A stretch of 64,000 nt of DNA, from NCBI GenBank assembly GCA_036273515.1, contig DASUHM010000062.1:1-64000 (forward strand). Reading direction: 5' to 3'. A program made the translations under genes and the position numbers. Positions within the stretch are counted from its first letter, which is position 1; every line of letters begins with the position of its first letter. Below are positions 1 to 8,704 of this stretch, one piece after another. The notes beneath the pieces are model-generated. The model searched no databases. It was not told the DNA's origin and saw only the letters and a program-made list of their open reading frames with translations. Source of the DNA: Gaiellales bacterium. Lineage in GTDB: Bacteria > Actinomycetota > Thermoleophilia > Gaiellales > JAICJC01.

Positions 1-1263
1 GGACAGCAGCGGCCGGTAGAAGCAGGTGCGGAACCGCTCCAGCGTATGGGCGGCGCCGAGGAAGTGGCCGCCGTGGCCGACCTCCTGGTGGGCGCCGTAG
101 GCCAGGCTGGCCTCGTCGATCTCGAGCGGCGTGAACTCCTCCTGCAGCATCCGCAGCATCTCGATGTCGACGATGAACTTCTCGTAGCAGGCGACGAGGC
201 CCGACTCGAGCCAGCCGGCCGCATGCTCCACGAAGTTCGCCCCCGCGAGGAACGCGGGCAACATGGTGTTCAGGCCCTCGTAGGCGGCCTGCGCGTCGGC
301 AGTCTGGCTGGACGTCAGGAAGCCGCCGCCGGCCCGCCACGGCACGCCCAGCCGGCGCGCGATCTGTCCCGAGCAGAGCAGGCCCATCGCCGACTCCGGG
401 CCGCCGAAGCCGGGGGAGCCCGACTGCATGTCGGTGTGGGAGAGGAACGAGCCGAGCACGACCGGCGCGCCGGGTCGCACGACCTGCGTCAGGGCGAGGC
501 CGGCCAGCGCCTCGGCGGTCTGCTGTACCAGCGACCCGGGCACCGACGCCGGCGACATCGCGCCCATGAGCAGGAACGGGGTGATGATCACGGCCTGGCC
601 GGCGGCCGCGTAGACCACCATCGCCTCGATCATGCGCGTGTCGTAGCGCATGGGCGAGTTGGCGTTGACGACGCCGAACACGCGCACCTGGTCGTCCGCG
701 GCGCCGCCGAACAGCATGTCGGTCATCCGGATCGTGTCGACGGCGGCGCCCTCGGTGATGACGGCGCCCATGTACGGCTTGTCCGTGAGCGTCTGGACGG
801 CGAGCAGCATGTCGAGGTGGCGCGAGTCGAGCGGCCGGTCGCCGGGCTCGCAGCAGAGGCCGCCGGGCGTGTCCAGCTGGTCGTAGGTCTGGCTCAGGCG
901 GCACAGGTTCTCGAAGTCCGCCATCGTCGCCTCGCGCCGATCCTCTCCCTCGCGCACGAACGGCGGGCCCTGGGTGGGGGAGAAGACCATGTGCCGGCCG
1001 CCCAGGTGGACGGTACGCTCGGGGTTCCGGGCGACGAGGTCGAACTCGCTCGGCGTGCTTGCGACGCACTCCATCACCCAGTCGGGATCGAACTTCACCA
1101 CCGACCCCTCGACCGTCTGCCCGGCCGCGCGGAAGCGCTCCAGCGATCCCTCGTGCAGGAACTCGACGCCGATGTCGGAGAGGAGCCGCCGCCAGCCCCG
1201 CTCGAGCACCTCCATCGCGTCCTCGGAGAGGATGTCGTAGCGGGGCATGTCGTTGCGGAACAC
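1..1263 (-). CDS. Trimethylamine methyltransferase (MttB) family protein, partial
   Basis: The reading frame is open for 421 codons and runs off the left edge, so the C-terminus is missing (full MttB proteins are roughly 470-510 residues). MttB-superfamily enzymes move a methyl group from a methylamine or betaine to a corrinoid protein. Recognisable stretches include an N-terminal helix with LSDIGVEFLHEG and the glycine-rich middle part ending MGLLCSGQIARRLGVPW. I checked every codon and found no in-frame TAG where the pyrrolysine of true MttB would lie, so this is probably a non-pyrrolysine member of the glycine-betaine methyltransferase type. The substrate cannot be read from sequence. The GTG start at 1263 lies 2 bases after the kinase stop, so it is probably co-transcribed with that operon. 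Confidence 0.85.
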   Translation of the reverse strand, partial: MFRNDMPRYDILSEDAMEVLERGWRRLLSDIGVEFLHEGSLERFRAAGQTVEGSVVKFDPDWVMECVASTPSEFDLVARNPERTVHLGGRHMVFSPTQGPPFVREGEDRREATMADFENLCRLSQTYDQLDTPGGLCCEPGDRPLDSRHLDMLLAVQTLTDKPYMGAVITEGAAVDTIRMTDMLFGGAADDQVRVFGVVNANSPMRYDTRMIEAMVVYAAAGQAVIITPFLLMGAMSPASVPGSLVQQTAEALAGLALTQVVRPGAPVVLGSFLSHTDMQSGSPGFGGPESAMGLLCSGQIARRLGVPWRAGGGFLTSSQTADAQAAYEGLNTMLPAFLAGANFVEHAAGWLESGLVACYEKFIVDIEMLRMLQEEFTPLEIDEASLAYGAHQEVGHGGHFLGAAHTLERFRTCFYRPLLS

Positions 1264-1265
1264 GG

Positions 1266-2657
1266 CTAGGCCGCCTTCCCGGCCGCGGGGATGCTCACGG
1301 AGAAGACGGTGTCCCCGGGCCGCGACCGCACCGACATCGCCCCGCGGTGGCCGATCACGATCCGGCGGGCGATGTCGAGGCCGAGGCCGGTGCCGTCGCC
1401 GACCTGCTTCGTCGTGAAGAACGGGTCGAAGATGCGCCCCTGCACCTCGGCCGGGATGCCGGGGCCGTCGTCGCCGATCTCGACCACGACGTCGTCGCCG
1501 ACGCTCCGGGTGGTGATCGTGATCGTCCCCTTGCCGTTGCCCTCGATCGCGTCGAGCGCGTTCGTGAGCAGGTTCGTCCACACCTGGTTCAGCTCCGAGC
1601 CGTGCACGGTGACGAGCGGAAGCGAACGGTCGTAGACGCGCTCGACCTTCACCGGCTCGTGCTTGATGCGGTACTTCAGCATGGTCAGGGTGCTGTCGAG
1701 CCCGGCGTGGACGTCGACGTCCTCGACGGCGGCCCGGTCCATGTGCGTGTAATCCTTGATCGCGGCCACGAGCTCCGAGATGCGGGCGGTCGACTCGTGC
1801 AGCTCGCCGACCAGGGTGTGCGCGGTGAGCGACGCGGCCACCCATTCGAGCGCCGGGCCGGTGGCCGGCCCGGCCGCCGACTGCACCTGCTCGAGCCAGT
1901 CCTCGTCGAGGCACGCCCGCGACAGCGGCTCGGCCAGCCGCCAGCCCTCCTGGCCCATGTCGTCCAGGAGCTCGGCCAGGCGGTCTTCGCGGTCGGCCGC
2001 GGCGACGTCGCCCTCGCCTTCGCCGGCCCGCGTCAGCGCCGCCTGCTGGAGCGTCACCAGGCGGGCGGCCTCCTCGCGCTCGACCCCGCTCGAGACGAAG
2101 TGGTGGACGGTGTCCTGGAGCGTGGCCAGCGCCTCGCCGAGCTCGCTGGCGGTGCGGCGGGCGGCCGCGGCCGGGTTGTTCAGCTCGTGGGCGAGCCCCG
2201 CGGAGAGGGTGCCGAGCGCGGCCAGCTTCTCCTGCTGGCGCACGAGCGCGTCGGCGGCCTGGGCGATCGGCGCGATCAGCCGCACCGTCGTCCGCATGGC
2301 GGTCGGCGCGTCGCGCAGGAACGACTTGAAGGTGGGGATGTCCCAGGTCAGCAGGTCGACCTCGGTGACGGCGCGGCCGCTCGCGACCGGCGGGTCGCCG
2401 GTGAGCACGTTCGAGGCGCCGGCGTACGTCGGCCCCTCGCGCTGGCTCAGGATCACGTCGACGCCGTTGATGCAGCGCGACCACTCGATCCGCCCCCTGA
2501 CGACGACGGAGAAGCGCTCGAGCGGCTTGCCCTCGGTGAAGAGCTCGTCGCCGATCGTGAGCCGGTCGGGCACGGCCTTGCCCGCGAAGTCCTCGAGCAG
2601 CGGCCGCTCGACGCCCTCGAACAGGTCGAGCCCCTCCAGCACCTCCACCGTGGTCAT
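1266..2657 (-). CDS. Sensor histidine kinase with N-terminal cyclic-nucleotide-binding domain
   Basis: This is a 463-residue soluble kinase. Residues about 8-125 form a cNMP-binding (Crp-like) beta-roll sensor. A HisKA dimerisation helix with the phospho-acceptor in LAHELNNP (His about 157) follows, then a HATPase_c domain with an N-box (NLLTNALDAI) and G-boxes (DDGPGIP, GTGLGL). No membrane segment is visible, so it senses a cytoplasmic signal or acts as a partner of the upstream receiver fusion. Its ATG shares the ATGA overlap with the upstream gene's TGA, implying translational coupling. The receiver of the upstream gene is the obvious phosphorylation partner, by inference from gene order. 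The physiological signal is unknown. Confidence 0.9.
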   Translation of the reverse strand: MTTVEVLEGLDLFEGVERPLLEDFAGKAVPDRLTIGDELFTEGKPLERFSVVVRGRIEWSRCINGVDVILSQREGPTYAGASNVLTGDPPVASGRAVTEVDLLTWDIPTFKSFLRDAPTAMRTTVRLIAPIAQAADALVRQQEKLAALGTLSAGLAHELNNPAAAARRTASELGEALATLQDTVHHFVSSGVEREEAARLVTLQQAALTRAGEGEGDVAAADREDRLAELLDDMGQEGWRLAEPLSRACLDEDWLEQVQSAAGPATGPALEWVAASLTAHTLVGELHESTARISELVAAIKDYTHMDRAAVEDVDVHAGLDSTLTMLKYRIKHEPVKVERVYDRSLPLVTVHGSELNQVWTNLLTNALDAIEGNGKGTITITTRSVGDDVVVEIGDDGPGIPAEVQGRIFDPFFTTKQVGDGTGLGLDIARRIVIGHRGAMSVRSRPGDTVFSVSIPAAGKAA

Positions 2658-4324
2658 ACGGCCGCTGCCAGGTACTCGTGCACGAAGTGGACGGCCATCG
2701 ATCCCTCGCCGACGGCCGAGGCGACCCGCTTCATCGACTCGCTGCGGACGTCGCCGGCGACGAAGACGCCGGCCATGCTGGTCTCGAGCAGGTAGGGGTC
2801 GCGGTCGAGCCGCCAGCGCGGGCGCACGTCCTCGCGCAGCACCTCGGCGCCGGCCAGGACGAATCCGCGCGGGTCGCGGGCGATGCCGCCGGGCAGCCAG
2901 TCGGTCTGCGGCCGGGCGCCGATGAAGACGAACATCGCGGCCAGGGAGAGGTCGTCCGTCTCGCCGGTCTGCGTGTCGCGGACGGTGATCCGCTCGAGCG
3001 AGGCGTCTCCGTGCGCGGCGGCCACCTCGCCGTGCAGGCGGACGTCGATGTTGGGGGTGGCCTCGATGGTGTCGATCAGGTAGCGCGACATGCTCTTCGC
3101 GAGGCTGGCCCCGCGGTACAGGATCGTCACCCGCTGGGCGTAGCCGGCGAAGTAGATCGCGGCCTGCCCGGCCGAGTTGGCGCCGCCGACCACGACGACA
3201 TGCTCGTCGCGGCACGAGACGCCCTCGCTGCGCGATCCGCCGTAGTAGACGCCGCGGCCGGCCAGCTCGTCGATCCCGGGCGCCTCGAGGCGGCGGTAGT
3301 CGACACCGGTCGAGACGATGATCGCCTTCGCGCCCAGCTGGTCGTGGCCGGCCATCTGCACGAGCCGGGCCGGGCCGCGCTCGTCGATCGCCGTCACCTC
3401 CTGGACGGTCAGGAGCTCGGCGCCGAAGCGCTGCGCCTGCGCCGTCGCCCGCCGGGCCAGGTCGGCCCCGGAGAGGCCGACAGGGAAGCCGAGGTAGTTC
3501 TCGATCCGCGAGCTCTGGCCGGCCTGCCCGCCAGGCGCCTCGCGCTCGATCAGCGCGGTGCGCAGGCCTTCGGAGGCGCCGTAGACCGCCGCGGCGAGGC
3601 CGGCCGGGCCGCCGCCGACGATCACGAGGTCGTAGAACTCGAGCTCGGCCCGTCGGCGTACGCCGGAGCGCTCCGCCAGCTCCGCCACGCTCGGGCCGTG
3701 CAGCACGCCCCCGTCGGGGAAGAGCACGAGCGGCAGCGCGGCCTCGCCGTCGGCCGCGGCGAGCAGCCGCCGGCCCTCGTCGTCGCGCTCGACGTCGAGC
3801 CACCGGTACGGCACCTGGTTCCGGGCCAGGAAGTCGCGGGCGTCGTGCGACTCACGCGACCAGCGGTGGCCGACCACCTGGATGCGGTCGGCGTCGTCCG
3901 GCGCGTCCGCCCGCCAGGCGTCGAGCAGGTCGTCGACGACCGGGTAGAGCTGCTCGTCGGGCGGGTCCCAGGGCTTCAGCAGGTAGTGGTCGAGCGAGAC
4001 GCGGTTGATCGCGTCGATCGCCGCCTGGGTGTCGGCGTAGGCGGTCAGGAGCACGCGCTTCGCCTCGGGGGCGAGCCGCATGGCCTCCTCCAGGAACTCG
4101 ACGCCCGACATCTCCGGCATGCGCTGGTCGGCCAGCAGCAGGGCGACCTTGGCGCCGCGCAGCTTCGACTCGCGCACGGACGTCAGGGCGTCCTCGCCGC
4201 TCTCGGCGCGAAGGACACGGTAGTCGCGCCCATAGCGGCGGCGCAGGTCGCGCTCGACCGCCCGCGCCACCGAGGGCTCGTCGTCGACGGCCAGCAGCAC
4301 CGGCCGCGCCTCCTGGGTGCTCAT
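2654..4324 (-). CDS. Response-regulator receiver / glutaredoxin-like / thioredoxin-reductase-like fusion flavoprotein
   Basis: This 556-residue protein has three parts. Residues 8-135 are a canonical receiver (acidic pair VDDE, phospho-Asp in LLADQRMP about 66, Thr in LLTAY, Lys in LLKPWD about 117). Residues about 147-220 resemble a glutaredoxin/thioredoxin fold, but WSRESHD stands where a CxxC would be. Residues about 230-556 are a thioredoxin-reductase-like module with FAD motif VGGGPAG and NADPH motif VVGGANSAG. The reductase lacks the CxxC pair: GGSRSEGVSC is found at that place. It is therefore probably a phospho-regulated flavoprotein rather than a true thioredoxin reductase. It overlaps by 4 bases with both the zinc-finger gene upstream and the kinase downstream, forming one operon. 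Confidence 0.88.
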   Translation of the reverse strand: MSTQEARPVLLAVDDEPSVARAVERDLRRRYGRDYRVLRAESGEDALTSVRESKLRGAKVALLLADQRMPEMSGVEFLEEAMRLAPEAKRVLLTAYADTQAAIDAINRVSLDHYLLKPWDPPDEQLYPVVDDLLDAWRADAPDDADRIQVVGHRWSRESHDARDFLARNQVPYRWLDVERDDEGRRLLAAADGEAALPLVLFPDGGVLHGPSVAELAERSGVRRRAELEFYDLVIVGGGPAGLAAAVYGASEGLRTALIEREAPGGQAGQSSRIENYLGFPVGLSGADLARRATAQAQRFGAELLTVQEVTAIDERGPARLVQMAGHDQLGAKAIIVSTGVDYRRLEAPGIDELAGRGVYYGGSRSEGVSCRDEHVVVVGGANSAGQAAIYFAGYAQRVTILYRGASLAKSMSRYLIDTIEATPNIDVRLHGEVAAAHGDASLERITVRDTQTGETDDLSLAAMFVFIGARPQTDWLPGGIARDPRGFVLAGAEVLREDVRPRWRLDRDPYLLETSMAGVFVAGDVRSESMKRVASAVGEGSMAVHFVHEYLAAAV

Positions 4325-4614
4325 CCGGCTCCGGCGGCCGGCGGTGACACGCTGAACGCGACCTCGTCCTCGTAGCACCAGAACCAGTCCTCGCCCGGCT
4401 CCGCGGAGCGGATGATCGGGTGGCCGCTGGCGTGCACGTGGGCGGTGGCGTGCCGGTTCGGCGACGAGTCGCAGCAGCCGATGTGGCCGCAGGTGGCGCA
4501 CATCCGCAGATGCAGCCAGCGGCCGCCGATGGCCAGGCAGTCCTCACATCCCGGGATCTCGTCAGGGAGCTCGGTGCGCTCGATCCGATCGGTGTGCGTG
4601 CAGGCCTCGGCCAT
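4321..4614 (-). CDS. UBP-type zinc finger protein
   Basis: This 97-residue protein is a single UBP (ZnF-UBP) domain. The ligand pattern is visible as CEDCLAIGG, MCATCGHIGCCDSS, HATAHVHASGHP and WFWCYED. In eukaryotes this fold binds the ubiquitin C-terminus. In bacteria, stand-alone copies occur beside thioredoxin-reductase-like flavoproteins and their role is not known. The start at 4614 is supported by a strong Shine-Dalgarno sequence (GGAGG, 7 bases upstream). It is the first gene of the operon with the receiver fusion and the kinase, overlapping the next gene by ATGA. A regulatory or adaptor role there is inference. Confidence 0.88.
   Translation of the reverse strand: MAEACTHTDRIERTELPDEIPGCEDCLAIGGRWLHLRMCATCGHIGCCDSSPNRHATAHVHASGHPIIRSAEPGEDWFWCYEDEVAFSVSPPAAGAG

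Positions 4615-7249: not shown

Positions 7250-8704
<1,455 letters not shown>

Follow-up and report, generated by a model that had tools for sequence, protein, structure and literature searches.

Receiver-linked thioredoxin reductase-like flavoproteins lacking both cysteine pairs are conserved across phyla beside a histidine kinase

What can a flavoprotein with the build of a disulphide reductase do once both of its redox-active cysteine pairs are gone, and under what control does it act? The question is raised by an open reading frame in a 64,000-nucleotide stretch of DNA from a Gaiellales bacterium (contig DASUHM010000062.1, positions 1 to 64,000; hereafter, the window). The frame lies in a compact cluster with the following features:

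2654..4324, minus strand: P0001, 556 aa, a receiver, glutaredoxin-fold and low-Mr thioredoxin reductase (TrxR)-like fusion; ATG at 4322-4324, stop at 2654-2656
3905..4324, minus strand: receiver domain of P0001, residues about 1-140 (Pfam Response_reg, 5.3e-15)
3650..3904, minus strand: mycoredoxin/glutaredoxin-fold domain of P0001, residues 141-225 (profile search and structure)
2657..3640, minus strand: TrxR-like FAD/NAD(P)H module of P0001, residues 229-556 (Pfam Pyr_redox_2, 7.6e-35)
1266..2657, minus strand: P0002, 463 aa, a cNMP-fold sensor histidine kinase (Pfam and conserved neighbour)
4321..4614, minus strand: P0003, 97 aa, a UBP-type zinc finger protein (Pfam zf-UBP, 9.4e-13)

The genes are ordered UBP, REC-TrxR, kinase, with an ATGA overlap at both junctions: the UBP stop codon overlaps the REC-TrxR start, and the kinase start codon overlaps the REC-TrxR stop. 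Directly upstream of the UBP gene, a putative gene for a methyl-accepting chemotaxis-type protein was recognized by eye (4667 to about 6400, minus strand), as were, near the system, putative genes for S-adenosylhomocysteine hydrolase (7250-8704, minus strand) and, in the frame upstream of it, S-adenosylmethionine synthetase. On the other side, a gene of the MttB methyltransferase family (1-1248, minus strand; PF06253, 1.7e-159) begins 17 bases past the kinase stop and runs off the window edge; it was dropped as a candidate partner, being common, among the loci compared, only to the near-identical locus L052.

The receiver of P0001 is canonical, as the earlier note on this DNA had held: the Response_reg match covers residues 11-122 (56.0 bits against a Pfam cut-off of 30.2), and the acid pocket (D14/D15), the phospho-acceptor D66, T94 and K117 are all present. 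D66 is kept in 105 of 113 aligned sequences. For the middle domain, the NCBIfam mycoredoxin model TIGR02200 matches residues 148-218 below its cut-off, a profile search retrieves mycoredoxin-1 (2LQO, E = 1.6e-9), and an AlphaFold2 model confined to this domain (pLDDT 89.8) aligns in Foldseek with a thioredoxin-like protein at TMq 0.73-0.79, with other glutaredoxin-fold proteins scoring lower. Structure prediction, which had been proposed as a check, thus recovered the thioredoxin fold and, together with the 2LQO match, rules out an unrelated domain. At the glutaredoxin site, WCxxC has become W-S-R-E-S (S156-R-E-S159), and the cis-Pro position, P198, is retained; the CxxC is indeed absent, but the residues replacing it are Ser/Ser rather than the Ser/Glu first described.

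The C-terminal part matches the TrxR core over residues 229-553 (Pfam/NCBIfam) and ends where TrxR ends. It scores 215.9 bits with TIGR01292 (low-Mr TrxR), under the curated cut-off of 343.45, and the AhpF family profile is not reached either (173.8 against 502.9 bits). In place of CATCDG it has GGSRSEG (residues 362-368), longer by one residue, in agreement with the earlier statement that the flavoprotein lacks the reductase CxxC. C371 is the sole cysteine of the whole protein, which makes an internal disulphide impossible. The AlphaFold2 model of full-length P0001, built with 49 aligned sequences (pLDDT 88.8), finds its best Foldseek match in AhpF (4o5q), with TrxR cores at TMt up to 0.93, and is nearer to the NADPH-near-flavin form of TrxR (5mh4, FR; TMt 0.92) than to 5mjk (FO; 0.63).

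The rest of the flavoprotein is strongly conserved. Across 49 aligned sequences from many phyla, 47 columns are invariant; the FAD/NAD(P)H motif residues G237, G239, G242, G265, G266, G524, D525, G380, N383, S384, A385 and R404 do not vary in this set, and E367 is nearly invariant. Furthermore, the loop that housed the TrxR cysteines retains Y361 in 113 of 113 members, G362 in 112 and an acid (Glu or Asp) at position 367, which aligns with the TrxR catalytic Asp, in 111. At position 371, 68 of 113 members have Cys, while about 40% have Tyr or a different residue; in seven members the entire core is free of cysteine. Of the three basic residues that contact the NADPH 2′-phosphate in E. coli TrxR, two are missing in the cysteine-less protein, and coenzyme use is therefore uncertain.

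We assembled the family from a scan of genome contigs (80 loci) and from loci in 199 genomes of the window's phylum. The scan reached Actinomycetota, Chloroflexota, Thermomicrobiota, Acidobacteriota, Cyanobacteriota, Pseudomonadota, Bacteroidota, Verrucomicrobiota, Deinococcota, Fidelibacterota and one Kariarchaeota MAG, and the family thus spans at least 11 phyla. The cysteine loss, whose conservation the earlier note had asked about, proved general: none of 125 homologues sharing this core has a CxxC at either the glutaredoxin or the TrxR site. In a tree of the TrxR part (IQ-TREE), the cysteine-less sequences form one clade (support 100/100) whose sister group consists of cysteine-bearing mycoredoxin-TrxR fusions, the two groups together again receiving 100/100; the topology was unchanged when the former CxxC loop was masked in all but six rows. 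The fusions, which are more distant matches, have no input domain and keep both CxxC motifs in seven cases (L133-L137, L139 and L140), whereas L138 has CPDS at the glutaredoxin site (monothiol) and CASC at the TrxR site. Homologues with intact CxxC, taken beforehand as grounds for rejecting the original reading, do therefore exist, yet they make up a separate sister clade, and the loss is accordingly derived, and old in this family, rather than a misreading. Most simply, both pairs would have disappeared once, in a mycoredoxin-TrxR fusion ancestral to the family. Plasmids of Burkholderia, Rhodococcus, Cupriavidus and Gloeocapsa carry members that are bare at the N-terminus and likewise devoid of CxxC, so that the loss need not coincide with the gain of an input domain. 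The fusions L133-L140 appear to be self-contained disulphide reductases, and L140 has two glutaredoxin repeats within its CxxC-intact chain.

The adjacent kinase shows the closest association with the receiver form. P0002 has an H-box with H157 in LGTLSAGLAHELNNP, the His being invariant in 89 of 89 family kinases, and a clear HATPase_c match (84.1 against 26.4 bits in Pfam). Among the 199 genomes of the window's phylum, the kinase is present in 22 of the 23 with a strong receiver form and in 2 of the 176 others. In the flanks examined, a P0002-like kinase (>100 bits) is present at 90 of the 105 loci that keep D66, but at none of the 9 whose receiver has decayed; rows of the cNMP type and others without a receiver were removed by hand before counting. 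Numerically the contrast is strong, but most of it comes from a single sub-clade, and a comparison of independent pairs on the tree gave no significance; it is thus supportive only. Kinase and TrxR distances are correlated (mirror-tree r = 0.88, with 0 of 1000 permutations as high), shared species history contributing to the value. Clustering of the ORFs around 112 loci found no constant neighbour besides the kinase. By adjacency, co-occurrence and co-evolution, the kinase is a dedicated partner of the REC-TrxR protein. Three tandem P0002-like kinases adjoin a single REC-TrxR gene at L036 and L038 (genomes G196 and G131).

The cNMP-domain Pfam score of this kinase is exactly at the cut-off, and the phosphate-binding cassette GE...(P)R.A[ST] is missing, with AGASNVLTGDPPVASGRAV in its place; 16 of the 89 family kinases match the cassette motif and 73, the window's own included, do not. 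Of the coupling to a cNMP-domain kinase claimed at the outset, the conserved adjacent kinase thus holds in many phyla, but the motif that usually contacts a cyclic nucleotide is missing.

Coupling to the UBP zinc finger, also claimed from the window sequence, was supported at the level of genomes. P0003 is a well-supported zf-UBP protein (48.7 against 22.7 bits in Pfam), with 2IDA as its closest structure (E = 6e-32). A zf-UBP gene occurs in 31 of 39 genomes with a cysteine-less core and in 14 of 160 without one, and the link persists in both the 2.5-3.5 and the 3.5-5 Mb genome strata. Consistently, in one genome (L043) a single frame encodes kinase and UBP together and matches the cNMP, HATPase and zf-UBP models. 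UBP genes also adjoin some bare and cNMP forms of the cysteine-less core, but they were found in the examined flanks of just 24 of 112 loci. Judged by these associations, the zinc finger is a genuine partner, though a looser one than the kinase. In eukaryotic ubiquitin readers such as HDAC6, the Arg of the CGR motif anchors the ubiquitin C-terminus; P0003 has CCDSS where CGRYV is expected, and the Arg is missing in its relatives too.

Within the cysteine-less clade, the input domain is exchangeable: it may be a receiver, a receiver without D66, a cNMP-fold domain, or none. The cNMP-fold domain is found in cis on the cysteine-less core in other genes, and the sensor type of the kinase therefore recurs as a direct fusion. 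Some of these cNMP forms end DnaK-GrpE-DnaJ-CbpM-ClpB-TrxA operons (Rhodococcus, Nocardia and Streptomyces plasmids and two sampled genomes, L143 and L144), where the UBP gene mostly lies between TrxA and the flavoprotein. Most of the chaperone-operon loci (L176, L181, L185, L186, L188, L143 and L144) have a UBP gene. In L176, L181 and L186, where the operon TrxA was read, its C-x-P-C is intact and two further CxxC pairs lie on its N-terminal side. By analogy only, these operons suggest a stress or protein quality control setting for the window's receiver form, although they belong to the cNMP form and come from a small number of actinobacteria, several being on related plasmids. The window genome itself encodes three paralogues, all cysteine-less (L032, G000:C44 83086-84297; L033, G000:C71 3573-5219; L034, G000:C12 60963-61826): one of them carries a cNMP-fold domain in cis, another has a receiver lacking the phospho-Asp, and in a third the glutaredoxin and TrxR portions are split between different frames, through interruption or assembly error. 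P0001 is not the only reductase of this genome, which has a canonical TrxR at G000:C88.

Collectively, the results lead us to favour, with moderate confidence, a reading of P0001 as a response regulator whose output is enzymatic or ligand-binding and which belongs to a dedicated two-component system: a phosphorylation-gated flavoprotein working independently of thiols. The adjacent cNMP-fold kinase would phosphorylate D66, and the phosphorylated receiver would alter the state of the AhpF-like glutaredoxin-TrxR flavoprotein. With both relay sites erased in the ancestor but the FAD, NAD(P)H and general-acid positions retained, the usual electron transfer to thioredoxin should not take place. More likely, FAD would take up hydride from NAD(P)H and hand it on to an acceptor other than a disulphide, or the redox state of the flavin would itself be the signal. 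The glutaredoxin fold could then offer a docking surface and the UBP zinc finger act as partner or reader, probably in the context of stress and protein quality control. The sequences establish the domain anatomy, a conserved cysteine loss of single origin, the dedicated kinase, the UBP association and the exchangeable inputs; cofactor binding, phosphotransfer, thiol-independent chemistry and the stress role are what we infer, and the sensor or oxidase role first proposed is hypothetical. We regard P0001 as a probable flavin switch whose job differs from thioredoxin reduction.

A different reading of the same features is that the protein is a catalytically dead scaffold, which would gauge redox or energy state by binding FAD and NAD(P)H and signal through its conformation without turnover, its receiver perhaps docking for feedback on the kinase. 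The absence of both electron-relay sites from 125 of 125 members and the exchangeable input domains speak for it, and the better fit of the model to the NADPH-near-flavin TrxR (5mh4, FR) is compatible with a fixed sensing conformation, although the conformational preference of an AlphaFold2 model is weak evidence. The former active-site loop and the acid at the catalytic Asp position, however, are kept across phyla, which suggests chemistry near the flavin, and we regard the scaffold as an unlikely, if serious, alternative. If electrons do leave the flavin, their acceptor might be ferredoxin or flavodoxin, with P0001 serving as a TrxR-like reductase under receiver control. TrxR-like enzymes of this kind (FNRs) are known and lack CxxC (PMC10294844), but the best sequence and fold matches of P0001 are TrxR and AhpF cores rather than FNRs, the protein ends as TrxR does, and no ferredoxin or flavodoxin gene is among the recurrent neighbours examined; we consider this quite improbable.

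Residual thiol chemistry is more doubtful still. It would have to proceed through C371 alone or borrow a disulphide from a partner, for instance the TrxA encoded in the chaperone operons; in its favour are the Cys at position 371 in 68 of 113 members and the CxxC-intact thioredoxin adjoining some cNMP forms. That cysteine is nevertheless replaced in about 40% of members, seven members have none in the core, and P0001 shares its genome with a separate, canonical TrxR. Lastly, missing catalytic residues are what a decaying gene or a local accident would leave behind, but decay is scarcely credible when 47 alignment columns are invariant in 49 sequences, the frames are intact, the operon is maintained and the gene co-evolves with that of the kinase; conservation across phyla rules out a pseudogene or local mutation.

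Beyond the regulatory reading of P0001 favoured here, it is possible, though we advance it only tentatively, that these proteins constitute a previously uncharacterized multi-phylum class of enzymatic response regulators which dropped both relays of a mycoredoxin-TrxR fusion, acquired interchangeable receiver and cNMP inputs, and perform thiol-independent redox chemistry in UBP-linked stress proteostasis. The family would offer a defined case of a redox enzyme that gave up both redox-active disulphides, kept its flavin machinery and gained signalling control, and it ties bacterial UBP zinc fingers to a specific partner.

Several known systems share parts of this architecture. With low-Mr thioredoxin reductase (TrxB, TIGR01292), P0001 has in common the FAD and NAD(P)H domains, the fold, the C-terminal end and the catalytic-site acid (E367), but it lacks CxxC, falls under the TIGR01292 cut-off and is fused to a glutaredoxin fold and a receiver. 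AhpF, the best Foldseek match (4o5q), likewise places a thioredoxin-fold domain ahead of a TrxR core; however, it has two such repeats and working CxxC pairs, whereas P0001 has one glutaredoxin fold, no CxxC and, in addition, a receiver. The mycoredoxin-TrxR fusions (L133-L139) share the domain order and are the sister clade (100/100), but have CPDC and CATC (CPDS and CASC in L138), no receiver or cNMP domain, and no kinase or UBP gene in the examined flanks. TrxR-like FNRs are a known group with the TrxR fold and without CxxC (PMC10294844), and differ in that the nearest relatives of P0001 by sequence and fold are TrxR and AhpF. The REC-TrxR architecture itself is already in print: a census of archaeal two-component systems describes REC-thioredoxin reductase as 'Mycobacterium-like' (PMC5847659), the passages concerned being silent on cysteine loss, the glutaredoxin domain, kinase pairing and UBP. 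Apart from this mention, we found in the open full-text literature no study of the cysteine loss, the kinase/UBP coupling or the function. Sequence records give the product name FAD-dependent oxidoreductase to the receiver form and to some cNMP forms, others of which are labelled thioredoxin-disulfide reductase. The NCBI 'cyclic nucleotide-binding domain-containing thioredoxin-disulfide reductase' shares the cysteine-less glutaredoxin-TrxR core and differs in having a cNMP input instead of the receiver; its product name is unsupported by the sequences. A large and ancient family, partly named thioredoxin-disulfide reductase in databases, thus lacks what the classical mechanism of such an enzyme requires.
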